Of a DNA stretch of 64,000 nucleotides, positions 10,773 to 60,800 are shown in pieces (the first letter of the stretch is position 1; each line of letters starts with the position of its first letter). The stretch comes from Paenibacillus terrae (GTDB taxonomy: Bacteria; Bacillota; Bacilli; Paenibacillales; Paenibacillaceae). Where the stretch lies: the NCBI RefSeq assembly GCF_000943545.1, contig NZ_JTHP01000234.1, positions 1 to 64,000 of the forward strand, written 5' to 3'. Below the pieces are notes generated by a model. That model had not been told where the DNA came from. It ran no database searches and saw only the letters and a program-made list of their open reading frames with translations. The position numbers and the translations under genes were made by a program.

Positions 10773-10949
10773 AAGTCCCACACATCATGATACACCACGA
10801 TACACAACATGATTAACATCTCGGCAACCACTCACAATCAACCTACCACCATGATGCAATGCCCAGCATAATTCAAGAATGATTTCATTCCATGTAAATA
10901 CTCATACATCCAGAGCCAGAGTTTATCTCACCATGTCCATTGCAACTTC

Positions 10950-10967
10950 AGGATTTTGCAAAATCCT
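10950..10967. promoter_or_regulatory. 18-bp perfect palindrome before triB
   Basis: AGGATTTTGCAAAATCCT is fully self-complementary. It lies in the 242-base gap between triA and triB, about 50 bases before the triB start, as an operator or as part of an RNA fold. The rest of the gap (10773–10949) shows nothing recognisable. Confidence 0.35.
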
Positions 10968-10999
10968 CACTAAAAAAGTTCGCACTGCGAAAGTGTGAG
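10966..10999 (+). promoter_or_regulatory. Nested hairpin just upstream of the triB ribosome binding site
   Basis: An inner stem TTCGC–ACT–GCGAA (10979–10991) sits inside an outer CTCACT/AGTG(T)GAG pairing (10966–10971 with 10992–10999). The triB ribosome binding site starts eight bases later. There is no T-run, so a translational or RNA-stability element is more likely than a terminator. Confidence 0.3.
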
Positions 11000-11020
11000 C
11001 AACGAAAAAGAGGGATGTCC

Positions 11021-12925: not shown

Positions 12926-14765
12926 GTTTAAGCAGTTGCTGTCCCTGATGAAGCCGTACCGAAAATGGTATTTTATCGGGTTGGTTGGCAACAGTCTGAC
13001 CAATGCGAGCATCACGATTTTACTTTCCTTTGTGGTGCATTATTTGCTGAATTTTGCGGTTGATGGGGAAGTGCAGGGGCTTTACCAGGCAATTTATTTG
13101 GTCAGCGGTACATTTTTGGCACTAAGTCTTATTTCTCCGCTGTGCAGCTACATGTATAAGCGGTGTGTGAGGCTGGCGATTGCCAATGTACGGGTGAGAC
13201 TATTCGGGCATATCGTCAACTTATCATATGAAAAGGTCGAAAAACGCCATTCGGGTGATCTTGTATCCCGCATGACAAACGATGTAAAGACGTTGGAGCA
13301 GGCTTACACCGTTCATATTCGCTCGATTATACTGGAAGTTTCGCTTTTCTTTGGTTCGCTGGTCATTATGCTGGCGCTGGATTGGCGATTTGGGGTTATG
13401 GCGGTTTTACTTGGGCTGGCTTCAGCTTGGGTAAATTCTCATTTCGCGAAGAAGATGCGACAGACGAGTGAAGAGTTACAGGGACGGATGAGCGGATTCA
13501 CAGAACGATTGAGTGATCTGCTTTCCGGTTTGCAGACGGTGAAGCTGTTTGGATTGCGGACAAAGGTAGGCGGACTTTGTAACGATGCAAGCGAGGACAT
13601 AAACCGCATCAGCATCCAGCAGGGACGTCATATGGGCTTGCAGGATATGTATAATTTTGTCATTGAATTCATTACGCTGGGTGGTGTGCTTGTTGCCGGA
13701 CTGATTCTGGTTTCACAGAAGCAGATGGAGCTGGGAGTACTGGGACAGATTGTGCAACTGCAAGGCGGCATTTCCGCGGTGTTTTTGCAGTTGGGGGCGG
13801 CTGTATCGCTGTTGCAAAACTCCTTGGCGGGCTTGGCGCGTATCCGCGAAATTCTGGATGAGTCGAAGGAAGAGGAGCATTTTCCAGCGTTGAAACAGAA
13901 GGGACCGCAGGCTGGGCTGATCGGTCCGGAGGCGGCAGCTTTATCAGCTCGTGAACCTAAGGGATCTCATAGTGATGTCGAAACTGTGAGCTCAGGCCAT
14001 GCCATTGAACAAGTTTCGGCTGCGCTGGAGCTGCACGACATCACCTTTGGTTATCAACCGGACCGTCCAACGCTGCAAAGGCTGAATCTGATCGTGCCGG
14101 AAGGGCAGGTCACCGCGCTCGTCGGCCCAAGTGGTGGTGGCAAAAGCACAGTCATGAAGCTATTGCTAGGCTTTTATCCACCGGATGAGGGTGTGCTGCG
14201 GGTCCGGGGTCGCTCGGCAGGAGAGCTTCGGTTAGATGAGGTCAGGGATTTGATGGCCTATGTACCACAGGAGGCTACGTTGTTCCACGGTACAGTGGCG
14301 GATAATATCCGCTTTGGCTCACCGGATGCCACGGATGAGGAAGTAGAGGCTGCGGCCAAAACAGCCTATGCGAGTGATTTCATAGCCGAGCTGCCAGAGG
14401 GTTACGACACGATTGTCGGTGAACGCGGAGCCAACTTGTCCGGTGGTCAAAGACAGCGGCTCGCTATTGCTCGCGCTTTGCTCAAAAATGCACCGATTTT
14501 GCTGCTGGATGAAGCGACCTCGGCGCTGGATTCAGAATCGGAATATGAAGTCCAGCAGGGCTTAAATGAGCTGATGAAGGATCGTACAACATTAGTCATT
14601 GCCCATCGATTGTCTACGATTGAGCGAGCGGATACGATCTGTGTTCTTGCCGATGGCGAGCTGAAAGAACAGGGTACCCATGACCAGCTCCTTGCCAAGG
14701 ACGGTCATTATGCGAAGCTGTATGAGCTTCAGTTTCGAAAGCATCCCGAGGAACAAACCGCATAA
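12900..14765 (+). CDS. triC: ABC exporter half-transporter (second of two), TMD–NBD fusion
   Basis: 621 residues with the same fold as TriB: membrane domain (about residues 15–310), a linker with a Ser/Gly/Ala-rich stretch (about 330–370), and a nucleotide-binding domain with Walker A GPSGGGKST from residue 409, LSGGQRQRLAIARALL and PILLLDEATSALDS. The GTG start at 12900 is set by AAGGAG at 12886–12891 with eight bases spacing and gives a 26-base overlap with triB, implying coupled translation. Both nucleotide domains keep the Walker B Glu (DEPTS and DEATS), so both sites of a heterodimer could be active. The NRPS gene begins 50 bases downstream. Confidence 0.92.
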   Translation: MTFKQGFYEFKQLLSLMKPYRKWYFIGLVGNSLTNASITILLSFVVHYLLNFAVDGEVQGLYQAIYLVSGTFLALSLISPLCSYMYKRCVRLAIANVRVRLFGHIVNLSYEKVEKRHSGDLVSRMTNDVKTLEQAYTVHIRSIILEVSLFFGSLVIMLALDWRFGVMAVLLGLASAWVNSHFAKKMRQTSEELQGRMSGFTERLSDLLSGLQTVKLFGLRTKVGGLCNDASEDINRISIQQGRHMGLQDMYNFVIEFITLGGVLVAGLILVSQKQMELGVLGQIVQLQGGISAVFLQLGAAVSLLQNSLAGLARIREILDESKEEEHFPALKQKGPQAGLIGPEAAALSAREPKGSHSDVETVSSGHAIEQVSAALELHDITFGYQPDRPTLQRLNLIVPEGQVTALVGPSGGGKSTVMKLLLGFYPPDEGVLRVRGRSAGELRLDEVRDLMAYVPQEATLFHGTVADNIRFGSPDATDEEVEAAAKTAYASDFIAELPEGYDTIVGERGANLSGGQRQRLAIARALLKNAPILLLDEATSALDSESEYEVQQGLNELMKDRTTLVIAHRLSTIERADTICVLADGELKEQGTHDQLLAKDGHYAKLYELQFRKHPEEQTA

Positions 14766-14815
14766 ATATGCGAGGTTTCTTTTTAACAATATCTATTTTG
14801 CGAGGAGAGATATAT

Positions 14816-19430: not shown

Positions 19431-22400
19431 CTGCTGCGGGAGAGCTGGAAAATGTTTATTCGCTAACGCCGATGCAAAAGGGAATCCTGTTCCACGGCTT
19501 GATGGAGCCGCAATCCGGGGCGTATTTTGAGCAGGCAACATTTGATCTGCAGGGCAGCTTTCAAGTGGATGCTTTTTCCGAAAGCCTGAATCTGCTGGTG
19601 AATCGCCATCAAATTTTCAGAACGAATTTTTATAGCGGCTGGAATGAGCAGCCTTTACAGGTGGTGTATCGTCATAAAGCTGCCGGATTCCGTTTTGAAG
19701 ACGTGCGTTCGATGGAGCAAGGAGAACTGGACGCGTACATTGCTGATTTTGCTGAGCGAGACAAAGCGGAAGGGTTTCATTTCAGCTCAGGCGAGCTGAT
19801 GAGAGTTTCTATATTACGTACGGGCGAGGAGTCGTACCGTTTTGTGTGGAGCTTCCACCATATTTTGATGGACGGCTGGTGCTTGTTCCTGGTTGTCGGG
19901 GAAGCCTTCAAAACGTATTTTGCATTGCTCGAAAACCGAAAGCCAGAGCTTGCCCCGGTAACGCCATATAGCGAATATATTGAATGGCTGGAACGGCAGG
20001 ACAACGCGGAAGCAGAACGGTTCTGGAGTGACTATTTTGCCGGCTTTGAACAACAGACGGTGTTGCCGCAAGCGAAGCAGCTGGACGGTCGCGCCAAGGG
20101 ATATGAGGCTGATAAGCTTTCGTTTACACTGAGCCGTGAAGTGACGGAGCGGATGAACAAGCTGGTCAAGCAGCAGCAGGTGACGGTCAATACGCTGCTG
20201 CAAGCGGCATGGGGTGTTGTGCTGCAACGATATAACAATAGTCGGGATGTTGTATTTGGTAGTGTTGTATCCGGTAGATCAGCGGATATTCCGGGCATCG
20301 ATAAAATGATCGGTTTGTTCATTAATACGGTTCCTGTACGGATTCACAGCGGGAAAGATGTTACGTTCGCTGGGCTGATGAAGCAGACACAGGAGCAGGC
20401 GCTTGCTTCCCGTGCCTATGAAACCTATCCGTTGTATGAAATTCAGGCCCTGACAGAGCAGAAGCAGGATTTGGTAAACCATATTATGGTGTTTGAAAAC
20501 TATCCGGTGGAACAGAGCATGGAGCAAATGGGTAGCCATGACACGAACGGCTTTACCATTGCGAATGCTTCCGTGTCGGAGCAAACGAACTATGATTTCA
20601 ACATTACCATTGTGCCGGGTGATGAAATCGGTGTTCATTTGGAATACAACGCTCTGGTGTTTGAACGCGCAGCTATGGAGCAAATCCGCGAGCATTTGCT
20701 GCATATCGTAGAGGAAGCGATTAACAGACCGAATGCGCTGGTAGATGAGCTTCAGCTGGTGACTGCTGAGGAAAAAGCGAAGATCATCGACGGTTTTGGT
20801 TCAGTTGGCGTGTATGCGTGGAGTGATGCGAAGGAAGTCGAATGGTTGTTCCACGCCTATGTGGAGGAACAGGCGCAGCTTGTGCCGGATCACGTGGCGG
20901 TTGTGTACGAGGAGAATCAGCTTACGTACCGCGAGCTGAACGAGCGTGCGAACCAGCTGGCTCGTAGACTGCGGAATGAAGGCATTGGACGCGAGTCGAT
21001 TGTCGGCATCTTGAGCGAACGCTCGGTAGACATGCTGGTCGGCGTACTGGCAGTGTGGAAGGCTGGAGGCGCATATGTGCCGCTGGATGCAGACTATCCG
21101 TCAGAACGTATTCGTTTCATGCTGGAGGACAGCGGTGCGACGGTACTGTTGACCCAAACAGGCTTGCAGGAGCGTGCCCAGGTATGGCTGGATGAAAACA
21201 AAGCAACATCCGAACCAGCAACAGAACTGCGTCTGCAAACTGTACTGGCGTTGGACGATGAGTCGCTGTACACCGGGGAATCCACAGATGTCGAGCATAT
21301 CAACGAGCCGCAGGACCTGGCGTATGTGATCTACACCTCCGGTACAACGGGACGTCCGAAGGGAGTCATGATCGAGCATCGCAGCCTGGTGAATACGGCT
21401 GCTGCGTATCGCCGGGATTACCGTCTGAACCAGTTCCCGGTACGGCTGCTGCAACTGGCGAGCTTCTCCTTCGACGTATTCGTCGGGGATATCGCACGGG
21501 CGCTCTATAACGGCGGAACGATGGTCATCTGCCCGAAAGATGACCGGATTGATCCAAGCCGTCTGTATAGCTGGATTCGCAATTATCAGGTTACGGTGTT
21601 CGAATCGACACCGGCCCTGATCGTACCGTTCATGCAGCATGTGCATGAACAGGGACTGGACATGAGCAGTCTGGAACTGCTGATCACGAGCTCGGATAGC
21701 TGCAGCGTGACGGATTACCGGGTGCTGCAAGAACGATTTGGCGCAGATACTCGGATTATTAACAGCTACGGCGTAACGGAAGCAGCGATTGACTCCAGCT
21801 TCTATGACGAAGAGCTATCGAAGCTGCCGAGCAGCGGCAGTGTGCCGATTGGTCAGGCGTGGCTGAATGCCCGTTTTTATATCGTGGACAGCCAGCTGAA
21901 TCCGGTACCTATCGGCGTACTGGGCGAGCTATGCATTGGCGGAGCCGGGGTAGCACGTGGGTACCTGAACCGTGCCGACCTGACGGCCGAGAAATTCGTG
22001 GCGAATCCGTACGTGCCGGGTGAACGATTGTATCGCACCGGAGACCTGGCGCGGTGGATGCCGGACGGGAATGTGGACTTTATCGGCCGGATGGACTATC
22101 AGGTCAAAATCCGGGGCTACCGGATCGAGTTGGGCGAGATCGAAACGGCGATTCAACGGGTGCAGGGTGTGCGTCAAGCAGTAGTGATCGACCGGACAGA
22201 CGAGCGTGGGCACAAGTATTTGTGCGGTTATATCACAGGAGAAACGGTGCGGATCGAGGAGGTACAGGCCCAGCTGGAAGCAGGGCTACCGGCGCACATG
22301 GTGCCAGCACGCTTGATGCGTCTGGAGACGATACCGCTGACGAGCAACGGCAAAATCGACCGCAAGGCCTTACCAGAGCCGGAAGGCAGCATCCATACAG

Positions 22401-40400: not shown

Positions 40401-43400
40401 ACATCCGTCTGTACATCGTGAAGGAAGGCACGGAGCAATTGCAGCCGATTGGGGTTGCAGGGGAGCTGTGCATCGGCGGTGTAGGTGTAGCACGTGGCTA
40501 TCTGAACCGTCCGGAGCTGACGGCAGAGAAATTCGTTGCCGATTCGTTTGCCGGTGGCGAAGCAGGATATGAGCGGATGTACCGCACGGGCGATTTGGCG
40601 AGATGGATGCCGGACGGCAACATCGAATATTTGGGCCGGATCGACCATCAGGTGAAAATCCGGGGGTACCGGATCGAGCTGGGCGAGGTCGAATCGCAGC
40701 TGCTGAAGGTGGAGTCGGTACGAGAAGCGGTCGTCATGGCTCGTGCAGATGAAACAGGCCAAAAACAAATGGTGGCGTACTACGTCGCCGGACAAGAGCT
40801 CGGAGCTAGCGAGCTGAGAAGTGAGCTGGGGCGGGAGCTGCCAAGCTATATGGTGCCATCGTACTTTGTACAGCTGGAGCACATGCCGCTGAGTCCGAAT
40901 GGCAAAATCGACCGCAAGGCACTGCCAGCACCGGAAGGCAGCCTGCAAAGCGGAGCGGATTATGTCGCACCGCGGACGTGGGTGGAAGTGAAGCTGGCGC
41001 AAATTTGGCAGGATGTGCTGGGCCTGGCGCAGGTTGGCGTGAAGGAAAACTTCTTCGAGATTGGCGGACATTCACTGCGTGCGACGACACTGGCCTCGAA
41101 GATTCACAAGGAGCTGAACAAGCCGCTTCCATTGCGCAGTATTTTTGAAGCACCAACGATTGAACAACTGGCAGCGGTTCTGGAAAGTCTGGATCAAGTG
41201 GCGTATGCATCCATTCCGGTAACGGAAGCCCGTGGCTTCTACCCGTTATCCTCGGCGCAAAAACGACTGTATGTGCTGCATCAGTTCGACCCGAATGATG
41301 TGAACTACAACATGCCATCGGTGCTGCAAGTGAGCGGTCCGCTGGATGTGAAACGAGTAGAAGACGTGTTCCGTCAACTGATCGCTCGCCATGCGACCTT
41401 GCGTACCCGCTTTGAACTGGTGGACAGTGAGCCGATGCAATGGATTGAGGACATTGTGCCGTTCGAAGTGGAATATGCAAAGGTTCAGGCAGTGGATACG
41501 ACTACTACGGATACAGACACGATGGTCAGCAAGGAAGCGCAAGAGCGGGTGCGGCGCTTTGTACGTCCGTTCGATCTGCAAGCTGCGCCGCTGCTGCGGG
41601 TAGGCTTGGTGGACCTGGGCGTACAAGGAGTGGAGCAAGAATCGCAGCATTTGCTCATGCTCGACATGCATCATATCGTTTCGGACGGTGTGTCTATGGA
41701 GGTACTGACCGATGAATTTGTCCGCTTGTATGACGGTGAAGAGCTGTCGCCATTGCGGATTCAGTACAAGGATTATGCGGTATGGCAGCAAAGCGAAGCC
41801 CATCAGGAGTGGATGCAGCGTCAGGAAGCGTACTGGCTCAACACCTTCCGAGGCGAACTGCCTGTGCTGGATCTGGCAACCGACTTTGCCCGCCCGGCGA
41901 TGCAGAGTACAGCAGGGAATACGATCGAATTCGGACTGGAGCGTGAAGTTAGCGAACGCTTGAAAGAACTGGCGGCGCAAACAGGCTCCACGCTGTATAT
42001 GGTGCTGCTGGCGGCGTACACCGCGCTCTTGCATAAATACACGGGCCAAGAGGATATCGTGGTTGGAACGCCGATTGCCGGAAGACCGCATGCGGAACTG
42101 GAGAGCCTGGTAGGTGTATTCATCAACACGTTGGCGATCCGTAATTATCCGTCTGGCGACAAATCATTCCTTGATTATCTGCAAGAGGTCAAGGAGCATG
42201 CGCTCAGTGCTTATGAGCATCAAGACTATCCTTTTGAAGAGCTGGTTGAGAAGCTGAATTTAACGCGGGATACAAGTCGAAATGCGCTGTTTGACACGAT
42301 GTTTGAGTTGAAAACATTGGAGCAGCAGGAGTTGCAGCTGGAAGGTCTTACTCTAAATTCGTATCCGATGGAAAATAATACTGCCAAATTTGATCTGACC
42401 CTGGATGCAGTGGAGCAGCCGGAAGGTATTCTGTGCAGTCTGGAATACAGCACGGCGCTGTACAAGCCTGAAACCATCGCGCGATTGGCCAAGCATTTTA
42501 CCGAACTCGTTCGTGCTATTACACTTGATCCGCAGCAGCCACTGGCAGCTTTGGATATGGTAACCGTTGAGGAAAAAGCACAAATCATCTACGGCTTTGG
42601 AGATGTGGGGGTATCAGATGTTACTGCTGTTAAAGCAGGAGCCCTGTTCCATGCCTTTGTGGAAGAACAGGCGCAGCTTATACCGGATCACGTGGCGGTT
42701 GTGTACGAGGATCAACAACTTACGTACCGTAAACTGAACGAGCGTGCGAACCAATTGGCTCGTAGATTGCGGAATGAAGGCATTGGACGCGAGTCGATTG
42801 TCGGCATCTTGAGCGAACGCTCGGTAGACATGCTGGTCGGCGTACTGGCAGTGTGGAAGGCTGGAGGCGCATATGTTCCGCTGGATGCAGACTATCCGTC
42901 AGAACGTATTCGTTTCATGCTGGAGGACAGCGGTGCTACGGTGCTGTTGACCCAAACAGGCTTGCAGGAGCGTGCCCAGGTATGGCTGGAGGAAAGCCGA
43001 GGGGTCTTGGCCGGAGGGAAGTCTGAGGGCCAACTGGAAACGGCGGTTAGTGCTGAAACGGTGGAATTAGATACCCTCCATGGAGACCTGAGTTTAACAT
43101 TAGACTCGCCATCTGACAGTGAAGCAACATCCGAACCAGCAACAGGACTGCGTTTGCAGACTGTACTGGCGTTGGACAATGAGTCGCTGTACACCGGGGA
43201 TATTGCGGATGTCGAACCTGTCAATGAGCCGCAGGATCTGGCGTATGTGATCTATACCTCCGGTACAACAGGACGTCCGAAAGGGGTCATGATTGAGCAT
43301 CACAGCTTGGTGAATACGGCTGCGGCGTATCGCCGGGGTTACCGTCTGAACCAGTTCCCGGTACGGTTGTTGCAATTGGCGAGCTTCTCCTTCGACGTAT

Positions 43401-46400
43401 TCGTCGGGGATATCGCACGGGCGCTCTATAACGGTGGAACGATGGTCATTTGTCCGAAAGACGATCGGATTGATCTCAGCCGTCTGTATGGCTGGATTCA
43501 CGATTATCAGATTACGGTGTTTGAATCGACCCCAGCCCTGATCGTACCGTTCATGCAGCATGTGCATGAACAGGGACTGGACATGAGCAGTCTGGAACTG
43601 CTCATCACCAGCTCGGATAGCTGCAACGTGGCGGATTACCGAGTGCTGCAAGAGCGGTTTGGTGCAGATACTCGGATTATTAACAGCTATGGTGTAACGG
43701 AAGCGGCGATTGACTCCAGCTTCTACGACGAAGAGCTGTCGAAGCTGCCAAGCAGCGGCAGTGTGCCGATTGGCAAAGCGTGGCTGAACGCACGTTTTTA
43801 TATCGTGGACAGCCAACTGAATCCGGTGCCTATCGGTGTGCTGGGTGAGCTGTGTATTGGCGGAGCCGGGGTAGCACGCGGGTATCTGAACCGTGCCGAC
43901 CTGACGGCTGAGAAATTCGTGGCAAATCCGTACGTGCCGGGTGAACGATTGTACCGCACAGGCGATTTGGCGCGGTGGATGCCGGACGGAAATGTGGACT
44001 TTATCGGGCGGATGGACTATCAAGTCAAAATCCGGGGCTATCGGATTGAACTGGGCGAGGTGGAAGCGCAGCTGCTGACCGTGGATGGGATTCAGAAAGC
44101 CATGGTCACTGCCTGGGAAAACGAAGACGGAAACAAGGACCTGTGTGCGTATCTCGTAGCCTCAGAGGCGCTGAGTTTGCCGGATCTGCGCAAAGCGCTG
44201 CAGCCAAAGCTGCCGGGCTATATGATCCCGACGTATGTCGTACAACTGGATCGTTTCCCGCTGACACCAAACGGAAAAATCGACCGCAAAGCGTTGCCTG
44301 CGCCAGAAGCGCGCTTGGGAGGCACGGAGTACGTTGCGCCGCGGACATTGCTGGAAGAGCAGCTAGTACGTATCTGGCAAGGTGTACTGAATCATTCGCA
44401 GATAGGCATTAAGGATAACTTCTTTGAAGTGGGAGGACATTCTCTGCGCGCCACAACACTGGTGGCGAAAATTCATCAGGAGCTGCATCACAAGCTGGCG
44501 CTGCGAGATATTTTCCAATATCCGACGATTGAGCAATTGGTACAGGTGATGGGTGAACATCAGACACAGCAAACGTATGTATCCATACCTGTTGTGGAGG
44601 AGCGCGCATATTATCCAGTTTCCTCGGCGCAAAAACGGATGTATGTTTTGAGTCACCTGGAAGGTGGAGAGGTTAGCTACAACATGCCGGAAGCTTTGAT
44701 TATTGAAGGTTTCCTGGATAAAATGCGACTGGAGCAAGCCTTCCGCCAGCTGATTGCCCGTCATGAAACCCTGCGAACCAGATTCGATATGGTGGATGGC
44801 GAGGTTGTTCAACGTATTGATCCAAATGTCGAATTCAATGTGGAGTATGTGCAGGCAAGCGAAGAAGAGACACAGCAGTACGCACTGGACTTTGTACGTG
44901 CATTTGATCTCGCGCAAGCACCGTTGCTGCGGGTTCAGTTGGTGGAAAACGGACCGCAACGTCACGTTATGCTCTATGACATGCACCATATTATTTCGGA
45001 TGGCGTTACTGAGGGAATTATCGTGCAGGAGCTCTCTCAATTGTATGCAGGCAAGGAGCTGCCGCCACTTCGCATCCAGTACAAGGACTATGCCGTTTGG
45101 CAGCATGCAGATATGCAAAGTGAACGTCTTCGTGAGCAAGAAGGCTATTGGCTGAAAACCATGGCTGGTGAAATTCCGGCGCTGGATATGCCAACAGATT
45201 TTGCAAGACCAGCCGTACAGCGTCTGGAAGGAGCTCGATTGGATTTTGCGATCAGCATGGAGGACAGCGAGCAGTTGAAACAGCTGGCCGCTCAAACCGG
45301 ATCAACCTTGTACATGGTGTTGCTTGCAGCGTATAGCACGCTTTTGCATAAATATTCGGGGCAGGAGGACATTATCGTCGGAACGCCGATTGCCGGAAGA
45401 CCACATGCGGAGTTGGGTGGCCTGATAGGCGTATTTCTCAACACGTTGGCGATCCGCAATTATCCGTCTGGCGATAAAGCATTCCTTGATTACCTGCAGG
45501 AGGTCAAAGAGCATGCGCTCAGTGCTTATGAGCATCAAGACTATCCTTTTGAAGAGCTGGTTGAAAAGCTGAATTTGATACGGGATACGAGCCGAAATGC
45601 ACTGTTTGACACGATGTTTGAGTTGAAAACATTTGAGCAGCAGGAGTTGCAGCTGGAAGGTCTGGCCTTAAAGCCGTATCCGACGGAAAATAATACTGCC
45701 AAATTTGATTTGACTCTGGATGCAGTGGAGCAGCCGGAAGGTATTCTGTGCAGTCTGGAATACAGCACGGCGCTGTACAAGCCTGAAACCATCGCGCGAT
45801 TGGCCAAGCATTTTACCGAACTCGTTCGTGCCATTACACTTCATCCACAGCAGCCACTGGCAACTTTGGATATGGTAACCGTCGAGGAGAAAGCACAAAT
45901 CATCTACGGTTTTGGAGATGTGGGGGTATCAGATGTTACTGCTGTTGAAGCAGGAGCCCTGTTCCATACCTTTGTGGAAGAACAGGCGCAGCTTGTATCG
46001 GATCACGTGGCGGTTGTGTACGAGGAGCAACAACTTACGTACCGCAAACTGAACGAGCGTGCGAACCAATTGGCTCGCAGACTGCGAAATGAAGGCATTG
46101 GACGTGAGTCGATTGTCGGCATCTTGAGCGAACGCTCGGTAGACATGCTGGTCGGCGTACTGGCAGTGTGGAAGGCTGGAGGCGCATATGTGCCGCTGGA
46201 TGCAGACTATCCGTCAGAACGTATTCGTTTCATGCTGGAGGACAGCGGTGCTACGGTGCTGTTGACTCAAACAGGCTTGCAGGAGCGTGCCCAGGTATGG
46301 CTGGATGAAAACAAAGCAACATCCGAACCAGCAACAGGACTGCGTCTGCAAACTGTACTGGCGTTGGACGATGAGTCGCTGTACACCGGGGATACCGCGG

Positions 46401-49400
46401 ATATCGAGCATATCAACGAGCCGCAGGACCTGGCGTATGTGATCTACACCTCCGGTACAACGGGACGTCCGAAGGGAGTCATGATCGAGCATCGCAGCTT
46501 GGTGAATACGGCTGCGGCGTATCGCCGGGATTACCGTCTGAACCAGTTCCCGGTACGGCTGCTGCAGCTGGCGAGCTTCTCCTTCGACGTATTCGTCGGG
46601 GATATCGCACGGGCGCTCTATAACGGCGGAACGATGGTCATCTGCCCGAAAGATGACCGGATTGATCCAAGCCGTCTGTATAGCTGGATTCGCAATTATC
46701 AGGTTACGGTGTTCGAATCGACACCGGCCCTGATCGTACCGTTCATGCAGCATGTGCATGAACAGGGACTGGACATGAGCAGTCTGGAACTGCTGATCAC
46801 GAGCTCAGATAGCTGCAGCGTGACGGATTATCGGGTGCTGCAAGAACGGTTTGGTGCAGACATTCGCATCATTAACAGCTACGGCGTAACGGAAGCGGCG
46901 ATTGACTCCAGCTTCTATGACGAAGAGCTATCGAAGCTGCCGAGCAGCGGCAGTGTGCCGATTGGTCAGGCGTGGCTGAATGCACGTTTTTATATCGTGG
47001 ACAGCCAGCTGAATCCGGTACCTGTCGGCGTACTGGGCGAGCTATGCATTGGCGGAGCCGGGGTAGCACGGGGATACCTGAACCGTGCCGACCTGACGGC
47101 TGAGAAATTCGTGGCGAATCCGTACGTGCCGGGTGAACGATTGTATCGCACCGGAGACCTGGCGCGGTGGATGCCGGACGGGAATGTGGACTTTATCGGC
47201 CGGATGGACTATCAAGTCAAAATCCGGGGCTACCGGATCGAGCTGGGCGAGATCGAAACCGTGATCCAGCGGGTGCCGGGTGTGCGTCAAGCGGTCGTGA
47301 TCGACCGGACAGACGAGCGTGGACACAAGTATTTGTGCGGCTATATCACGGGAGAAGCGGAGCTGCGGATCGAGGAGGTACAGGCCGAGCTGGAAGCAGG
47401 GCTGCCAGCGCACATGGTGCCAGCACGCTTGATGCGTCTGGAGACAATTCCGCTGACGAGCAACGGCAAAATCGACCGCAAGGCCTTGCCAGAGCCGGAA
47501 GGCAGCATCCATACAGGTGCAGCCTATGTAGCACCGCGTACAACGGTAGAGCAGGTATTGGCTTCGGTATGGGCCGGGGTGCTCGGCGTGGAAACGGTAG
47601 GCACGCAGGATAACTTCTTCGAGCTGGGCGGCGATTCGATCAAGGCCTTGCAAGTATCGTCCCGATTGCTGCAAGCAGGCTACCGACTGAACATGAAGGA
47701 TCTGTTCAGTAATCCAACGGTGTCTGCATTGGCGCTGAAAGTCCAATCTGTGACAAGATTGGCAGATCAGAGCGAAGTGGTGGGCGCTGTGAAGCTGACA
47801 CCAGTTCAACAATGGTTCTTTGAGCAAAACCTGACGGATGCTCATCATCATAACCAGTCCATCATGCTGCATAGCAAGGATGGTTTTGATGAAAAGGCAC
47901 TGCGTACAGCGATGGATCAAATTGTTAGCCATCACGACGCGCTGCGTACCATTTTCCGTCCTACCGATCACGGATACGAAGCATGGAACCGTGCGATTGG
48001 TGAGGGTAAGCTGTACACGCTGGAACAGACGGACTTCAGCAATGAGACTGAGGTGTCTGCGGCCATCGAGGCCAAAGCGAATGAAATTCAAGCTGGAATT
48101 GATTTGAGTGAAGGACCGCTGGTGAAGCTGGGGCTGTTCCATTGCCCAGATGGAGATCATTTGCTGATTGCGATTCATCACTTAGTGGTGGACACCGTAT
48201 CCTGGCGCATTTTGTTCGAGGATATTACGACAGCCTATGAGCAGGCATTGAACGGACAAGCGACTCGTCTTCCGTACAAAACGGATTCGTTCTGCACCTG
48301 GGCTGATGGACAATCTCAATATGCGAACGGTCCGGAAATTGCAGCGGAACTCGCATTCTGGCAAGAAATTGAACAGGGAATGTATGAGCCGCTTCCAAAA
48401 GACCAGCCACAGTCCTATTCCTTAAATAGGGACAGCGAGATCGTTACTGCCACGTGGACAGCTCAGGAAACGGAGCAGCTGTTAAAACAGGCGCATCGTG
48501 CCTACAACACGGATATGAATGATTTGCTGCTTACAGCATTGGGAATGACGATTCATCGCTGGGCTGGCATTGGACGAGTGCTCGTCAACCTGGAAGGTCA
48601 TGGACGGGAGTCCATTTTGCCAGAGCTGGATATTACTCGCACCGTTGGCTGGTTCACGACTCAATTCCCGGTTGTGCTGGATATGAGCGTGGGGCAAGAC
48701 CTTTCACAGTGCATCAAAAATGTGAAAGAAGGGCTGCGTCGCATTCCGCAAAAGGGCATTGGCTACGGAATTTTGAGATACCTGTCCGCAGCACGTGAGC
48801 AAGAGCGTTTTGTAACCGAACCTGAAATCAGCTTTAACTATTTGGGACAATTTGATCAAGATATGCAAAATCAATCCATTGACGTATCTCCTTACTCCAG
48901 CGGTGAAGAGCTTAGCGCACATGCAGCCAGATCGTATACGCTAGACATTAATGGAATGATTTCCGAAGGCGAACTGCAATTGACGATCAGCTACAGCAAT
49001 CAGGAATATCGCCGTGAAACGATGGAGCAGCTAGCCGAGGAGTTCAGAACCAGCTTGCGGGAAATCATTGCGCATTGCGCAGGCCGCAAACAGCAGGAGC
49101 TGACTCCAAGCGATGTAATGCTTAAAAATGTAACCATGGCTGAGCTGGATCAATTGGTAGAGCGGACTCGTGACATTGGCGAACTGGAAAATGTATATGC
49201 GTTAACGCCGATGCAAAAAGGTATGTTGTTCCATAGTCTGATGGATGCAGAGTCAGGTGCTTATTTTGAACAAACGACATTTGATTTGCGCGGACGCTTC
49301 CAAGCGAATATTTTCCAAGATAGCTTGAATCATTTGGCGCAGCGGCATGAGATTTTTAGAGCTAATTTCTACAGTGGTTGGCAGGATGAGCCTGTGCAGG

Positions 49401-52400
49401 TCATTTTCCGCCGCAAGGATATTGGTTTCAAATATGAAGATCTGCGTCATTTGGATGAGCAGGAGCGTGACGCGTATGTGAAGGAATTTATTCGTAAAGA
49501 CAAGGCAGCCGGATTCGATTTGTCCCGTGATGCATTGATGCGCGTGGCGATTTTACGAACAGGTGATGAGGATTATTATTTTGTGTGGAGCTCTCATCAC
49601 ATCTTGATGGATGGCTGGTGTGTGGCGTTGGTAACGGATGAGGTGTTTGAGGCTTATTTTGCAGCCGTTGAGCATAGAGAACCGAAGCTTGCCCCAGTTA
49701 CTCCATACAGTCAGTATATTGAGTGGCTTGAAGCACAGGATGTAGAGGCTGCATCTTCATACTGGAATGATTATTTGCTCGACTATGATCAGCAAACTTC
49801 GATTCCGACCGGAAAAGTAGGAGTAAAGGCGGACGGTGCACAATTTGAGCATGTGCTGTGCGATCTGGGCAAGGATTTGACAGGCCGCATTGAAATGGTT
49901 GCCAAGCAGCACCACGTGACCACGAATACATTATTGCAAACGGCATGGGGCTTGCTGCTTCAAAAGTACAACGGTAGTGATGACGCTGTTTTTGGCGGCG
50001 TAGTGTCTGGTCGTCCGGCTGATATTTCGGGTATCGAAAATATGGTGGGCTTGTTCATTAACACCATTCCAGTACGTATCCGCAGTGGAGCTGAGGAAAC
50101 ATTTGCCGACATGATCAGAGCGAATCAGAAGCAGGCGCTGGCTTCTCAAGCTTATGAAACGTATCCGCTATATGAAATTCAAGCCTTAAGCGAGCAAAAG
50201 CAAGACTTGATCAACCACATTATCGTGTTCGAAAACTATCCGGTGGAGGAGCAGGTCGAGCAACTTGGCGAAGGTGCAGAATCGGATTTTGAAATTAGCA
50301 ATGCAGGCATGATTGAACAAACCAACTATGATTTCAATCTGCTCGTCATTCCGCAGGAAGCGATGAAAATCCGATTTGAATACAATGCAAAGCTCTATGA
50401 TCGTGAAGCCGTTGAACGGACTCAGGGCCATCTGATGCAGCTGCTGGAGCAGGTGGTAGCGAATCCAGACATTCGGGTACATGAGCTGGATATGTTAAGC
50501 GAGCAGGAGCGAGAGCAAATTCTGGGTGTATGGGGAGATACAGCCGCCGAGTATCCAAGCGAGCAGACGATCCATGGCTTGTTCGAGACACAAACAGCGC
50601 AGACACCGGAGCAGGCAGCGTTGTTCTTCGAAGGAGAGCAGTTGACCTATCGCGAGCTGAATGAACGTGCGAATCGTCTGGCTCGTACCTTGCGCAGTCA
50701 AGGCGTGACGAAGGATCGTCTAGTAGGTCTGATGACCGAGCGTTCGGTAGACATGATTGTGGGCATCTTCGGGATTTTGAAAGCCGGGGGTGCATATGTA
50801 CCAATCGATCCGACGTATCCAGAGGAGCGTATCCGCTACATGCTGGACGACTCAGAGGCAGAGCTGTTGTTGACGCAAAGCCATCTGGTGGACAAAGTAG
50901 CTTTTGACGGCAACATGCTGGTGCTGGATGGGGCACAGGGTGTGTATCACGAGGATGGTTCCAATCTGGAGCCGTTGTCCGGTCCAAACGATCTGGCGTA
51001 TGTGATTTATACGTCGGGTACGACGGGTCAACCGAAGGGCGTTATGTTGGAGCATCACGGGCTGTGCAATCTGAAAACGTATTTTGATCAGACACTTCGG
51101 ATCAGCACGTCGGATCATGCGTTGTTGTTCGCCAGCTATTCGTTTGATGCGGCTTGCTGGGAAATCTTCCAGGCGCTGTTCTGCGGAGCCACGTTGTACG
51201 TGCCAACGTCAGAGACGATTTTGGACTATGAGAGATTCGAGCATTATATGACAGAACATCAGATTACGGTGGCGACGTTACCACCGACCTATGCTGTATA
51301 TCTGGAACCGGAGCATATGCCGAACCTGCGTACTCTGTTCACTGCCGGATCAGCATCGTCGACAGAGCTGGTGCACAAGTGGAAGGATCAGGTTGCGTAC
51401 TACAACGGTTACGGTCCGACAGAAAACTCGGTAGCGACGTCGGTTTGGTCGGTATCCGAAGACGAGAGAGCAGGCCAACTGATTTCCATCGGACGTCCTA
51501 TTCCGAATCATCGGGTATACATGGTGGATGTGCATGGACATTTGGCTCCAATAGGTGTAGCGGGTGAGCTGTGTGTATCTGGTCCGGGTCTGGCCCGTGG
51601 CTATCTGGATCGTCCAGAAATGACAGCAGAGAAATTCGTACCGAACCCATTTGCGGCTGGCGAAGCAGGTTATGAACGGATGTACCGTACAGGTGACTTG
51701 GCAAGATGGATGCCGGATGGCAACATCGAATATTTGGGCCGGATCGACCATCAGGTGAAAATCCGGGGCTACCGGATTGAACTGGGCGAGGTTGAGGCCC
51801 AAATGCTGAAAGTGGAAGATGTGCAAGAGGTTATTGTGCTGGCCCAGGCGGACGAGCAGGGGCAAAATCAACTGGTGGCGTACTATGTTGCTGAACGGGA
51901 AGTGAACGCAGGAGAGCTGCGCAGCTTACTGGGCGCGGAGCTGCCAAACTACATGGTGCCTTCGTATTTGGTACAGCTGGAGCACATGCCACTGACATCG
52001 AACGGCAAAATCGACCGCAAGGCACTGCCGGCACCGGAAGACAGCCAGCAAAGCGGAGCCGACTATGTCGCACCTCGGACGTGGGTGGAAGTGAAGCTGG
52101 CGCAAATTTGGCAGGATGTGCTGGGCTTGGCGCAGGTCGGCGTGAAGGAAAACTTCTTCGAGATTGGCGGACATTCGCTGCGGGCGACAACCCTGGCCTC
52201 GAAGATTCACAAGGAGCTGAACAAGCCGCTTCCATTGCGCAGTATTTTTGAAGCGCCAACGATTGAACAACTGGCAGCGGTTCTGGAAAGTCTGGATCAA
52301 GTGGCGTATGCGTCCATTCCGGTGACCGAAGCCCGTGATTTCTACCCGTTGTCCTCGGCGCAAAAACGACTGTATGTGCTGCATCAGTTCGACCCGAATG

Positions 52401-55400
52401 ATGTGAACTACAACATGCCGTCGGTGCTGCAAGTGAGCGGTCCGCTGGATGTACAACGAGTAGAAGACGTATTCCGTCAATTAATCGCTCGCCATGCGAC
52501 CTTGCGTACCCGCTTTGAACTGGTGGACAGTGAGCCGATGCAATGGATTGAGGACATCGTGCCGTTCGAGGTGGAATATACGAAGGTACAGGCAGTGGAT
52601 ACGACTACTACGGATACGGACACGATGGTCAGCAAGGAAGCGCAAGAGCAGGTGCGGCGCTTTGTACGTCCGTTCGATCTGCAAGACGCCCCGCTGCTGC
52701 GGGTAGGCTTGGTGGACCTGGGCGTACAAGGAGTGGAGCAAGAACCGCAGCATTTGCTCATGCTCGACATGCATCATATCGTTTCGGATGGTGTGTCCAT
52801 GGGCGTACTGACCGATGAATTTGTCCGCTTGTATGAGGGTGAAGAGCTATCGCCATTGCGGATTCAGTACAAGGATTATGCGGTATGGCAGCAAAGCGAA
52901 GCCCATCAGGAGTGGATGCAGCGTCAGGAAGCGTACTGGCTCGACACCTTCCGGGGTGAGTTGCCAGTGCTGGATTTACCTACAGACTTTGCCCGTCCGG
53001 CGGTACGAAGTACGGCAGGGGATACGGTCGTGTTCGGACTAGAGCATGAAGTTAGCGAACGCCTGAAAGAACTGGCGGCGCAAACAGGCTCTACGCTGTA
53101 TATGGTGCTGCTGGCGGCATACACTGCGCTCTTGCATCAATACAGCGGCCAAGAGGATATTGTGGTCGGCACGCCGATTGCAGGACGACCACATGCGGAT
53201 CTGGAGCCGATCCTCGGGATGTTCGTCGGAACGTTGGCATTACGGAACTATCCGACGGCGGAACAAACCTTCCGCAGCTACGTGGAAGAAGTGAAAGTTC
53301 ATGCTCTGCAAGCCTACGAACATCAGGACTATCCATTTGAGGAACTGGTGGAAAAGCTGAATGTGAAGCGGGATATGAGCCGCAATCCGTTGTTCGATAC
53401 GATGTTTACGTTGCAAACCACTGAGGAAGGCGAACTGCAGCTGGCAGACCTTAGCTTCCGTCCATACGGCTTGGAACAAACGCCAGCCAAGTTTGATTTG
53501 ACGCTGGAAGCCAGAGAGGAAGAAGCAGGCATTCAGTTCGGATTGCAGTATGCAACCGCGTTGTATCAACGGGAAACCGTAGAACGGATGACACGTCACT
53601 TCATTCGTTTGGCCGAAGCCGTGGCAGCGAACCCGGATGCGAAGCTGGGTGATATGGAGCTGATAACGGCGGAAGAAACTGAGCGGATTCTGAAGGTGTT
53701 CAACGATCCGAACGCGCATAGCGTGCGTGGAGGAGCACAGGGTCGTGCGCTCAGCGAACGGTTTGAAGAGCAAGCGAAGCACAGCCCTGAGCGGGTAGCA
53801 GTCGTGTCTGGGAACACGACGCTGACCTACGCTGAGCTGAACGAGCAAGCGAACCGATTGGCCCGTGTGTTACGGGCGAAAGGGGTCGAAGCAGATCAAC
53901 CGGTAGGCGTATTGCTGGAACGTTCTGCGGATATCCTGGTGTGCATTATGGGGGTACTTAAGGCCGGAGGCGCGTATGTGCCGATGGATAGCATGTATCC
54001 GCAGGAACGCATCGACTACATGCTCCAAGACAGCGGGGCAACGGTCGTGATTACAAGCAGAGTCGCGTATCTCTCGCTCAGTCTGCCATCCACAGTACAG
54101 GCTGTAGTCCTTGATGACGAGGACGTTCAGGCTCAGCTGAACGTACAGGATGCGAGCAACCTGATCCCTGTCGTCGGCCCGCACAACCTGGCCTATATGA
54201 TTTACACGTCAGGTACAACCGGTCAGCCGAAAGGGGTCATGATCGAGCAGGGCAGCGTCAGCAATCTGGTAGATGCTTTATCTGAGCGGGTATACAGCCG
54301 CTATGAACAGCCGCTTCACGTCGCATGGCTGTCGGCGTTTGTATTTGACGCTTCGGTGAAGCAAATCTTTGCCAGCTTGTTGCTAGGCCACACCTTGCAT
54401 GTCGTATCCCGTGACGTAAGCCTGAACGGGGAGCAATTGGTCGCCTACTACCGCACGCACCGGATCGACCTGTCGGATGGTACACCTGCGCATCTGCATA
54501 TTTTGAACGAGAACGTCAACGTGACGGAAGCGCCGGGAGTGAAGCACTATCTGATCGGCGGTGAAGCGTTATCTGTGCAGTTGGTCAACGGGTTCCTGCA
54601 CAAGTGGTCCGGGTACCGCCCGGTGATTACCAACGTGTACGGTCCGACCGAAACGACGGTAGATGCGACCGCTTATACGCTTGAAGATGTGGAAGCCCTG
54701 AACGTACTGCTGGAAAAAGGTGAACACACCGTATCCATCGGAACGCCGATAGCGAACCAGTCCGTATACATCCTGAACACCCAGCAACAGCTGGTACCGA
54801 TTGGTATCGTAGGCGAGCTCTACATCGGGGGTGCAGGTGTAGGACGAGGATACCTGAACCTGCCGCAACTGACGGCAGAGAAGTTCCTCCCGAATCCGTT
54901 CGCCCTGTCGGAAGCCGGAGAAGCTCCAGATGCCTACATCCACCGGATGTACCGGACGGGCGACCTGGCCCGATGGCTGCCGGATGGAAGCATCGAGTAT
55001 TTAGGCCGGATCGACCACCAGGTGAAAATCCGGGGGTACCGGATTGAACTGGGCGAGGTGGAAGCACAGCTGCTGACCGTGGACGGCATTCAGAAAGCCG
55101 TGGTCACTGCATGGGAAAACGAAGACGGACACAAGGATCTGTGTGCCTACATTGTAGCCACAGCACCGCTGAGTCTACCGGAGCTGCGAAACGCGCTGCA
55201 GCCGAAGCTGCCGGATTACATGATCCCGACGTATGTTGTACAACTGGATCGTTTCCAGCTGACCCCAAGCGGAAAAATTGACCGCAAGGCGTTGCCTGCA
55301 CCGGAAACGCGCCTCGAAGGTGGCATGGAGTACGTTGCGCCGCGGACGCCGCTGGAAGCCAAGCTTGCTCAAATCTGGCAGGATGTATTGAAGCTGTCCA

Positions 55401-57010: not shown

Positions 57011-57084
57011 AACACAACGCTCATCTACGTAACAACGCACCATTCCAACCGGGGTACAGACCCCATGAAGCAGGAGGGATGTCA

Positions 57085-57828
57085 TTGAAAGCCTTATTTG
57101 AGAAGGAAAAAAATTACTGGAGTCATAAGCTGGAATCTGAGGATCATATCATCTGCCTTCCATACACCAACAACGTGTCCAAGGATGCAACTTCAACGAA
57201 TTTAAATTCCCATACGTATACGCTCACATTTCCATCTGAAATTTCCGGGCGAATATTGTCTATAACAGGTGGCGCTCCATGGGCAGTGTTTATGGTGCTG
57301 CTTGCTGGAGTAGAAAGCCTGTTACATAAATACACAGGTGAGGAACGTGTGCTGCTGGGCATTCCGGTAGCCAAGTCTGGCAACGGTGCTATAAAGCCGA
57401 TCAATCATCTGCTTATACTGAAAAACACGCTGGATTCCACAACGACCTTCAAAGCCTTGCTGTCTCAAATCAAAACCTCTGTCAGCGAAGCGATTGAGCA
57501 CCAAAATATACCTTTTTGGAACTATACCGAGGGGCTTGAAATTCCACGTAACGAGGATGAACAGCCTATTATTCACACCACGGTGTCCCTGCGAAATATC
57601 CATATTTCCGATTTTTCGAATCATGTACAGTCTGAGCTTGATTTTCAATTTCAATGGGAAAACGCAGCGGTTTCCCTGAATCTGAATTACAGTAGCCACC
57701 GTTATAATGAGGCGACGATTGAACGCTTTGTTGAGCAGTTGTTGCGGTTGTACAGCGTTGTTCTGCATCAGCCAGAGCTGGCAATTTCCACAGCACAAGT
57801 GCTGTCAGAGCAAGAAATGGAGCAACTG
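57085..57828 (+). other. Half condensation domain (C-lobe only) at the TriE N-terminus
   Basis: About 248 residues that align with the second lobe of the other C domains: NYWSHKLES to YWLEHLAGE, VFMVLLAGVESLLHKYTGE to LYMVLLAAYTALLHKYSGQ, LLGIPVAKS to IVGTPIAGR, and HQNIPFWNY to HQDYPFEEL. The first lobe with HHxxxDG is absent, so it cannot catalyse condensation alone. It is divergent from its siblings, unlike the recently copied domains. Confidence 0.82.
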
Positions 57829-60800
57829 GTTTATACCTTCAACGATACAGCTGTGGATTATCCGCGGCATGCGTCCATTCATGAGTTGTTTGAGAAACAG
57901 GCGAAGCAGGCACCGCAGCAGGTGGCGGTAGTGTTCGGAAAAGACAGCCTGACCTATGGAGAATTGAATGAAAAAGCCAACCGTCTGGCTCGTACATTAC
58001 GTAAGCAGGAAATCTGCACCGAGCAGACTGTCGGTATTGTGGCTGAACGCTCGATCGAGATGATCGTCGGTATGCTCGCGATTCTCAAAGCAGGCGGGGC
58101 CTATGTGCCGATTGACACTGATTACCCGGATGAACGCGTGCGCTATTTGCTGGAGGATTCCGGTGCAAACCTACTGCTAGTGCAGCGAATGGAGCATCGG
58201 CCCGCTGATTTCCAGGGAATTGTGCTTGACCTGAGCGATTCCGCAATCTATGGAACGAATGATGCTGATCGTTTCGATCCGGTTTTGCCGAACGATAACG
58301 AGACGTATGCTGACATAGCTGGCATCGGATATGTAGATTGCTTAAACCCGCTCTATTCCATTTCCGCTAGTCCTGAGCTTGCTTCTACTACATCCACACA
58401 ACCAGAAGCCATGCAACCAGAAGCTACGCAATCAGAACAAGCAGAACAGGTACGTCAGACCTACGCAGCAGAAGAACAAGCGAAGGCAACTGCTGCTGAT
58501 CGCTTGGCATACATCATGTACACCTCAGGGACGACAGGCCAGCCGAAAGGGGTTATGGTAGAGCACCGTAACGTCGTACGTCTGGTGAAAAATACAAACT
58601 ATGCGCAACTGGATGCTGAGACGCGCATTTTGCAGACCGGGGCCGTTGTCTTTGACGCGTCCACCTTCGAAATTTGGGGTGCGCTATTGAATGGTGGACA
58701 GCTGGTGCTGGTGAGTCAGGATGTCATTTTGGACGCGCCGAAGCTCAAGGAAGCTGTTCGCAGCCATGGCATTACCACGATGTGGCTGACAGCGCCGCTC
58801 TTTAACCAGCTGTCCCAGCAGGACCTGGAACTGTTTGAGGGGGTACGGGAGCTACTGGTCGGCGGTGATGTGCTGTCCGTCCCGCATATTAACCGGGTGC
58901 TGGAGGCTCATCCTTCCCTGCGGATCATAAATGGTTACGGCCCGACGGAAAATACAACCTTCTCCACGACGCATGCGATTACTGGCGTGCAATCAGAATC
59001 GGTGCCGATCGGCAGCCCGATCCATAACTCGACGGCGTATGTCGTAGACCGTTCGATGCAGCTTCAGCCTGTCGGGGCATGGGGAGAGCTGATCGTCGGC
59101 GGTGACGGGGTGGCACGTGGATACCGGAATCGCCCGGACCTGACGGCAGAAAAGTTCATCGACAGCCCGTACCGCAGCGGAGAACGCTGCTATCGCACAG
59201 GCGACCTGGTGCGCTGGAATGCGAACGGGACGCTGGAATACAAGGGACGGATCGACGCCCAGGTGAAAATCCGGGGCTATCGGATCGAGCTGGGCGAGGT
59301 GGAAGCGCAGCTGTTACAGCTGGAGTCGGTGCGAGAAGCGGTGGTGATTGCACGTGAGGATGAGCAGGGGCAAAAGCAACTCTGCGCTTATGTGGTGACC
59401 CATGAGGATGTAACGGCAAGTGAGCTGCGTAGCGCTTTGAGCCAGGAGCTGCCGGGCTACATGGTGCCGTCGTATTTTGTGCAGCTGGAGCAATTGCCAC
59501 TGACACCCAACGGCAAGGTGGATCGCCGGGCGTTGCCACAGCCGGAGGGAAGTGTAAGCTCAGGCGCAAAATATGTACCTCCTCAAAATCAATTACAAGT
59601 ACAACTGGTGAGTATCTGGAAAGATGTGCTGGAGCTTGACCGCATCGGGATTAAGGATAACTTTTTTGAAGCAGGAGGGCACTCCCTGCGGGCGACACAT
59701 GTTATATCACTTATTCATAAGGAATTGCATAAAAATGTGCAGCTAAAGGACCTGTTTCAGCACCCGACGATTGAACAGCTTGCGCAGGTGATTGAAGCGC
59801 TGGAGCAAACCGCCTATGAATCCATACCTGTTACGGAGAATAAGCCATTTTATGCGGTATCCTCGGCACAAAAACGGATGTATATCCTCAATCAGCTTGA
59901 TGGAGCGGGAATTAGCTATAACATCCCTGGTGCTCTGGCACTGACAGGTTCACTTGATCATAAGGCACTGGATAATGCGTTCCGCCAGCTTATTGACCGC
60001 CATGAAACATTGCGTACAAGCTTTGAGACCATGAACGGTGAACCTGTCCAGCGAGTACATGACGAGGTTCCTTTTCGTATGGAGTTGATTCATGCCCACG
60101 GAGCTGACCCTAAGGAGACGGATGAGCTGGTACGCGACTTTGTCCAGCCGTTCGATCTTGGACAGGCTCCGCTATTCCGAGTCGGTTTGATTGAAACAGA
60201 TCCAGAGCATTATATTTTACTGCTGGATATGCATCACATCATTTCGGACGGTACCTCTATAAATGTGCTGATTCAGGACTTCATCCGTTTATATGCAGGT
60301 GACACGCTGCCACCGCTGCGCATTCAGTATAAGGACTACGCCGCCTGGCAACAGGAGCAGCAGCAAAGTGAACGTTACCAGCAGCAGGAAAGCTACTGGC
60401 TGAATACCTTCGCGGGAGAGCTACCCGTGCTGGATATACCGACCGATTATCCGCGCCCGGCGGTGAGAAGCTTTGAAGGAGATGTGCTGGAATTTACGCT
60501 CGATCAACGACAGAGCGAAGGTTTAAAAAGCATTGCGGTGCAGACGGAATCAACATTGTATATGGTGCTATTGGCTGCTTATACGTCTTTGCTTAGCCAC
60601 TACAGCGGGCAGGAGGATATTATCGTCGGTTCGCCGATTGCGGGGCGGCCCCATGCTGATCTTGGTAGCCTGATCGGGATGTTTGTGAATACACTGGCAA
60701 TCCGCAATTATCCGGAAGGTGGTAAGACATTCCGCGATTATGTATTGGAGGTCAAGGAAAACGCGCTGAAGGCATTTGAACATCAGGATTATCCGTTTGA

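Follow-up and report, generated by a model that had tools for sequence, protein, structure and literature searches.

A mosaic module 7 in a Paenibacillus tridecaptin-type synthetase points to transfer of a condensation-adenylation tract from module 8

Module 7 of a tridecaptin-type nonribosomal peptide synthetase (NRPS) from Paenibacillus terrae was found to be a mosaic of segments resembling two other modules of the same protein. The synthetase is encoded in a stretch of 64,000 nucleotides (contig NZ_JTHP01000234.1, positions 1 to 64,000; referred to as the window) by a TriD-like gene at 14,768–56,932 (+ strand, as for all module segments given below), which codes for 14,054 amino acids and comprises ten modules according to the list of open reading frames, ten A3, A8 and T motifs and matches to PF00668. 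We estimate a probability of about 0.75 that an old module 7, which was module 10-like and loaded serine (Ser), received a single tract of approximately 1.94 kb (42,104–44,040) from module 8. The tract, running from just after the segment GTPIAGRPHA in the condensation (C) domain to the A8 motif of the adenylation (A) domain, would have carried over the final third of C8 together with the C-A linker and the A core selecting 2,4-diaminobutyrate (Dab), with module 7 keeping its own donor-side C part, its C-terminal A subdomain (Asub) and its carrier domain (T7), and the residue predicted at position 7 would have changed from Ser to Dab. In the simplest reading, the flanks are the old module 7 and the middle, the C tail and A core from module 8, is the newcomer. 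An earlier sequence-only reading of the window had described module 7 as a three-part chimera; the mosaic and its sharp joints were borne out, but three donors are not the simplest explanation, since one tract from module 8 suffices.

Module 7 is a mosaic in the window genome and in its relatives

The mosaic structure was confirmed by comparing module 7 with the nine other modules of the cluster in sliding windows of 40 codons. The DNA of module 7 is 94–98% identical to T9-C10 and 50–71% identical to module 8 between positions 40,961 and 41,860, and 84–92% identical to module 10 between 41,801 and 42,100. From about 42,101 to 44,020 it is 88–99% identical to module 8 (33–74% to module 10), the A core being similarly close to module 2, and from 44,021 to 44,380 it is 81–91% identical to module 10 (50–65% to modules 2 and 8). 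The nearest module switches abruptly twice, from module 10 to module 8 and back to module 10. Identities calculated per segment gave the same picture: the N-terminal part of the C domain (C N-part) is 93.3% identical to module 10 and 61.6% to module 8, the C tail 93.1% to module 8 and 59.8% to module 10, the A core 91.1% to module 8 and likewise 91.1% to module 2, and Asub 86.1% to module 10. The resemblances pointed out by the sequence-only reading, of the T6-C7 front to T9-C10, of the rear of C7 and the A core to module 8 and of Asub to module 10, therefore all hold, with sharp changes near the positions it had named and no uniform divergence.

In terms of features, the left flank comprises T6 and the first part of C7 (40,961–42,097), read as old module-7 backbone, which falls with module 10 in a branch of 12 module 7 and 12 module 10 rows (support 100/100); its paralogue, T9 to mid-C10, lies at 52,064–53,212. 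The tract covers PF00668 positions 289–455 and PF00501 positions 2–384 and takes in the final third of the C domain, the linker between C and A and the entire A core. Its counterpart in module 8, probably the descendant of the donor, lies at 45,419–47,235, the ends being deduced from motif positions in module 8. The right flank is the module 10-like Asub (44,060–44,330), whose paralogue in module 10 is located at 55,058–55,330. A third change occurs at about 44,330, where the match to module 10 falls from 234 of 271 to 148 of 220 bases; T7 (44,331–44,560) begins there and is close to no other module of the cluster (best 69.2%). Module 2 was rejected as the donor of the tract, as its A core is alike but its C tail is 47.8% identical to that of module 7, compared with 93.1% for module 8.

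A search of 75 genomes of the genus with the module 7 DNA returned matches at E 1e-50 or better in 34, many of them to other Dab-type modules. A module 7 with a Dab code was found in 11 loci of nine genomes (G000, the window genome; G060, G063, G061, G027, G025 and G019 with one locus each; G026 and G028 with two each), and the mosaic was present in all nine clusters that could be fitted. The module 7 of G025, which has a broken reading frame, was left out of the C-domain trees, the tract fits and the joint fits, and G019 was left out of the joint fits, having neither module 8 nor module 10 on its contig. The two tridecaptin-type clusters of G026 (L078–L083) and G028 (L084–L089) differ from each other in their codes at modules 1 and 9.

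Since the window genome is a draft of 232 contigs and NRPS modules are long near-repeats, we considered whether a mosaic might have been created by short-read assembly collapsing repeats, or imitated by constraint on the protein. Of the nine fitted clusters, seven are located in five genomes that consist of a single contig, and these share the joints; the mosaic is therefore not a misassembly. At sites with identical amino acids, the share of identical codons between module 7 and modules 10 and 8, respectively, was 0.89 and 0.47 in the C N-part, 0.45 and 0.86 in the C tail, 0.47 and 0.83 in the A core, and 0.74 and 0.52 in Asub. Synonymous codons thus switch with the joints, which indicates shared descent and rules out protein constraint as the cause. 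Taken as a whole, an artefact is extremely improbable.

The two joints

Joints were placed by a three-segment likelihood fit on informative sites. For the window genome, the fit placed the left joint at 42,103–42,105 and the right joint at 44,038–44,047, with module 8-like states at 25 of 345, 696 of 736 and 48 of 232 informative sites in the three successive segments; in this genome, the maximum chi-square observed at either joint was reached by none of 10,000 permutations of the informative sites. The left joint, which we delimit to 42,098–42,105, was fitted at 42,102–42,105 in all four clusters of group I and at 42,021–42,094 in the five fitted clusters of group II (groups defined by the gyrB tree), and the right joint lay between 44,020 and 44,060 in all nine. 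In the window the best-fit left joint falls just 3' of GTPIAGRPHA (42,065–42,094), a segment present within the TriD protein only at C7, C8 and C10, and the right joint lies inside KIRGYRIELGE (A8; 44,027–44,059), which is present in all ten A domains of the protein.

The left joint had been assigned to the boundary between the two C lobes, but it corresponds to position 289 of 456 in PF00668, about 100 residues inside the C-terminal lobe: half-C domains of the window genome start at PF00668 positions 184–195, and the N-lobe of AmbB, as described in the available text of PMC8968710, has 174 residues. A predicted structure of C7-A7-T7 was used solely for secondary structure near the joints (mean predicted local distance difference test score (pLDDT) 60.8, predicted template modelling score (pTM) 0.37); it places the left joint in a putative loop between strands at residues 281–286 and 305–310, with pLDDT below 50 at residues 288–303.

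That short conserved motifs act as joints, as the sequence-only reading had proposed, is plausible. Within the region allowed for it, the right joint coincides with the patch of best match (fractions of positions at least as alike in 45-base windows: 0.002, 0.003 and 0.013 for three proxies of the parents), and the longest perfect match between module 8 of G013 and its Ser-type module 7, 23 bp at 44,027–44,049, spans it. The left joint is exceptional only if it is placed inside the motif (about 42,083, within the top 0.3–1.9% of positions for match) and not at 42,104. Joints in conserved patches are partly expected by chance because a breakpoint within identical DNA cannot be placed, and the longest perfect match between the window genome's own modules 8 and 10 (17 bp at 41,249) is away from the joints, which limits this test.

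Relatives with a Ser-type module 7 suggest a probable direction of transfer

A Ser-type module 7 was found in four loci of four genomes, namely G013, P. massiliensis (L002), P. farraposensis (G008) and P. massiliensis subsp. panacisoli (L003), called by the substrate code for G013 and L002 and by alignment and motif for G008 and L003. The code of module 7 in the window thus differs from that of these orthologues, and retention of Dab specificity, as in the sequence-only reading, is not the simplest account: the change would have been from Ser to Dab. The C domain of module 7 is module 10-like in both parts in all four Ser7 loci; that of G013 is 92.9% and 89.2% identical to its own module 10 in the two parts, that of L002 is nearest to module 10 rows or to module 7 of G013 (75–79%), and those of G008 and L003 are nearest to module 7 or module 10 of G013. 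Asub of module 7 is module 10-like in both P. massiliensis loci, L002 and L003. A swap of Asub from module 10, as previously suggested, is not needed to explain module 7 of the window, and we infer that Asub is native to module 7 and was kept. This corrects the direction of the exchange: the Dab core would have come in and Asub stayed.

Segment trees were calculated without rows containing more than 30% gaps, and L003, L012 and L019 were left out of the module alignment, L003 being compared separately; the trees lacked a P. massiliensis module 10 outgroup owing to masked stretches and broken frames in L003 and L050. In the T7 tree, all 13 usable module 7 rows, Ser and Dab, formed one branch (98/97), and the T7 domains of G008 and L003 were also nearest to T7 rows (96% and 81%), in line with T7 being module 7's own carrier, orthologous in Dab7 and Ser7 clusters. 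In the C-tail tree, ten Dab module 7 rows fell within the module 8 branch (23 rows, 100/100) and two Ser module 7 rows within the module 10 branch (14 rows, 100/100). The best Asub tree joined 11 Dab module 7 rows, 12 module 10 rows and module 7 of L002 (100/99). All module 7 rows as one clade were rejected for the C tail (p-value of the approximately unbiased test (p-AU) 3e-64), the A core (2e-156), Asub (3e-48) and the C N-part (7e-5). Of the Ser7 clusters, those tested (G013, G008 and L002) have the module 8-type C tail in module 8 itself, which makes module 8 to module 7 the parsimonious direction, and the donor copy was retained, a module 8-type C tail and a Dab core standing at module 8 in every cluster read (12 module 8 codes). 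In the gyrB tree, P. massiliensis lies outside the whole group (100/100), and it is from these outgroups that the direction is deduced.

The flanks of module 7 would also be accounted for if module 10 had supplied, by two crossovers, both the T-C front and the Asub of a Dab module like module 8, with Dab specificity unchanged throughout. Front and Asub are indeed both module 10-like, and the C N-part of module 7 does exchange with module 10, as indicated by the rejection of a single module 7 clade for this segment and by G013, where the C N-parts of modules 7 and 10 are sisters (100/97). T7, however, is neither module 8- nor module 10-like and is orthologous to T7 of the Ser7 clusters, and the Ser7 loci already have a module 10-like C7, so that the module 10-like flanks predate the Dab core or are independent of it. 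As this scenario moreover requires two swaps where one suffices, we regard it as improbable.

Several observations weigh against a single transfer from module 8 into an old Ser-loading module. Asub of module 7 is Ser-type, not module 10-like, in G013 and G008, so that the case for a module 10-like ancestral Asub depends on P. massiliensis and the Dab7 lines, and module 7 of G008 is broken across two contigs. The alternative Asub grouping of Dab module 7 with modules 2 and 8 was not firmly rejected, with p-AU 0.06 in a tree including module 11 of G062 (masked, long branch) and 0.13 in a second tree without it. A single gain depends on a gyrB branch that unites groups I and II, and this branch is weakly supported (53/99); an unrooted gyrB tree without the outgroup joined G013 and G008 to group II. 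The best-fit left joint at 42,104 is unremarkable, 17–32% of positions being at least as alike. Finally, one clade of Dab module 7 A cores was rejected (p-AU 0.0017), and in the C-tail tree group I module 7 rows stand among group I module 8 rows, apart from those of group II. With regard to the Ser-type Asub, the core of module 7 of G013 is 96.3% identical to that of its own module 13 and its Asub 85.4% to that of module 4, from which it follows that position 7 received cassettes more than once; core and Asub of module 7 of G008 likewise resemble a Ser cassette from module 4 or 13.

Proposed history and continuing exchange between modules

A single transfer from module 8 would most probably have occurred by copying guided by homology, either between repeats that lie about 3.2 kb from each other within one gene or from incoming tri DNA paired with the resident copy, with RecA-type pairing and resolution in well-matched motif patches. 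A donor on the same chromosome and incoming DNA from another strain leave the same trace, as homogenised paralogues and strain transfer look alike. The Dab7 module may have been retained because of the added positive charge. Subsequent exchange, involving the C N-part for modules 7 and 10 and the Dab cores for modules 2, 7 and 8, keeps these pieces alike within a cluster.

In line with such exchange, the Dab cores of modules 2 and 8 are 97.4% identical to each other in the window genome, compared with 93–97% between orthologues in G060 and G063. The A core of module 2 (20,847–22,147), which is 95% and 91% identical to module 7, is the third member of this homogenising set. A further marker is an extra segment of about 41 amino acids between A2 and A3 (42,996–43,121), which is present in module 7 and absent from modules 2 and 8 of the window cluster. 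In a survey by pattern of the Dab modules of L072–L104, in which 7 of 36 modules could not be measured, it occurred in module 7 only in G000, G060 and G063 and in modules 2 and 8 in G013, and it was not present in module 7 of G061 or of the second cluster of G026. The shifting of this segment among modules 2, 7 and 8 is a marker of exchange between Dab modules.

Copying from module 8 to module 7 could also have taken place twice, once in each of groups I and II and with nearly the same joints. This would explain why module 7 rows of the two groups separate in the C-tail and A-core trees and why their left joints differ. All sampled Dab module 7 rows nevertheless fall in one branch for Asub (11 rows, 100/98) and the C N-part (10 rows, 94/97), a single C-tail clade was not rejected (p-AU 0.29), and the homogenisation of Dab cores within clusters, which is seen independently, would produce the same pattern. 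Two copies are in our view unlikely. The original event is blurred because paralogous modules keep exchanging pieces, and later homogenisation would mask the difference between one event and two.

Comparison with other switched modules and known A-core exchanges

Module 11 differs between Val and Ile without a tract of low identity over the binding pocket, whereas such a tract is present in seven modules whose codes differ between clusters (modules 1, 3, 4, 6, 7, 9 and 13). For each of these except module 7, the tract starts where the C domain ends (about 42,586; module 7 coordinates are used throughout this comparison) or further on, at 42,568–42,755 for modules 1, 3, 4, 6 and 13 and at about 43,285–43,304 for module 9; some module 9 pairs start at the alignment edge, and those checked involve G061, in which the reading frame is interrupted immediately upstream of A3. 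Only the tract of module 7 begins inside the C domain, at 42,097–42,305 in nine pairs, all of them against the single usable Ser7 cluster, G013. The share of the C domain in the tract is therefore unusual within the family, for a sample of one event or two. Among the other switches, module 9 (A3 at 51,005) has a Phe/Trp code in the window and a Val code in the same-species genome G060 (L073–L074; gyrB 99.0%), the tract between the two running from just after A3 to near A10; the same two clusters differ between Val and Ile at module 11.

A-core swaps are known, often inside one assembly line, from the available parts of PMC8097286, PMC7486941, PMC9205934 and PMC2174460. Module 7 displays the hallmarks of such natural swaps: it is nearer to another module than to its orthologue with sharp breakpoints, its code has changed and its native T domain was kept. 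The native C-A linker is not among the retained parts (tract start at about 42,104, C end at about 42,586), and this departs from a trend that Baunach et al. 2021 (PMC8097286), in the text available, stress with two exceptions. As in their swaps, which were likewise recognised by sliding-window breakpoints against orthologues, the A core was replaced, specificity changed and the native Asub and Asub-T interface were probably kept; unlike in those swaps, the linker and the last third of C came with the core. Similarly to the mcyB1/mcyC replacement in microcystin synthetase (Fewer et al. 2007, PMC2174460), the exchange was between two modules of one line, would have changed the product and recurs in several lineages, but the accessible part of that report states that condensation domains did not move with the A domain. 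The breakpoints flank the binding pocket and the C-A junction, as do the A-domain hotspots of Pseudomonas, Bacillus and Streptomyces (Calcott et al. 2020, PMC7486941); the hotspots given in the portion of that study at hand are at the C-A junction, at A2-A4 and near A5, and none is inside the C domain. In the XUC engineering unit (Bozhuyuk et al. 2019, as summarised in parts of PMC11355689 and PMC11546977), the acceptor part of C also moves with its A domain. An XUC (CAsub-A-T-CDsub), in contrast, has its joint between the C halves, that of module 7 being about 100 residues further in, and continues through A and T into the next C, whereas the module 7 tract stops at A8 and leaves Asub and T. 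For the Paenibacillus paenidepsin synthetases (PMC13036774), too, the available text presents sliding-window evidence that A domains recombined at a variable lipopeptide position; that case differs in belonging to another product family and having arisen after duplication of two modules.

Ser7 was predicted earlier for tridecaptin D clusters (PMC11106739) and Gln7 for cave strains (PMC7829367), without an account, in the available texts, of how position 7 changed. The word 'recombination' is absent from the main text of PMC11106739, and no title on recombination in tridecaptin module 7 was found in the literature searched, which mostly excludes subscription journals. Module 7 is accordingly a clear but not unprecedented case of NRPS evolution, A-core swapping being known and the C-domain part of the tract unusual. 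In a family of antibiotics active on Gram-negative bacteria, related species with Ser7 or Dab7 modules provide a natural before/after pair whose joints are located to a precision of a few to tens of bases. A disputed point, namely whether a new A core needs to be accompanied by a portion of the C domain, becomes directly testable in this way.

It is possible, and we put this forward only tentatively, that the tract represents a natural exchange unit of the C-acceptor part plus the A core, extending from the C5-side loop to the A8 hinge, which moves substrate selection and the acceptor face and keeps the donor face, Asub and carrier. The C part would then travel for a reason, such as the fit of the cationic Dab acceptor, and the joints would be preferred as the best-matched DNA. 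Dab-type cores that are 81–88% alike occur with at least three types of Asub, which fits the view of core and Asub as separable and rules out that a Dab core is tied to one Asub type. An explanation of the A8 joint by matching of Asub to an E-type carrier was unsupported, since the Asub of module 4 (with E) and module 6 (without E) are near-identical in the alignment.

Gene cluster and additional observations

Read at the specificity-code positions, the A-domain codes of the first NRPS correspond to Val, Dab, Gly, Ser, Phe/Trp, Ser, Dab, Dab, Phe/Trp and Glu for modules 1 to 10; the terminal K of each code was added by script and not read from the sequence. The code DVGEISSID was read at modules 2, 7 and 8, in agreement with Dab at positions 2, 7 and 8 of the predicted tridecaptin product. 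The cluster in the window consists of a thioesterase gene (9,948–10,772), two ABC transporter genes (10,940–12,925 and 12,702–14,765), the first NRPS gene and a second NRPS gene that starts at 56,950 and extends beyond the end of the window at 64,000. This is the order, thioesterase, two ABC transporters and two NRPS genes, reported for tridecaptin clusters in the available part of PMC8127968. Tridecaptin synthetases have 10 + 3 modules according to the text at hand of PMC11106739, and ten A domains were found in the first NRPS and two in the part of the second that the window contains.

In G061 (L096–L098 and L099–L101) the tridecaptin synthetase looks split: modules 1–6 are joined to parts of another NRPS near 4.23–4.28 Mb (+ strand), and modules of about 5–13 are joined to the same other NRPS near 4.95–4.99 Mb (− strand). 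The two clusters appear as if their ends had been exchanged, the alternative being a misassembly.

Moreover, half-C domains (PF00668 positions 184–456, without the N-lobe) were observed in the window at 57,076–57,831, before the A domain that opens the second NRPS, and between a full C domain and an A domain on other NRPS contigs of the window genome (C111:8010–8801 and C113:3977–4705). The half-C domain of G061 shares no more than 21% identity with the C domain preceding it, indicating that it is not a fresh duplication.

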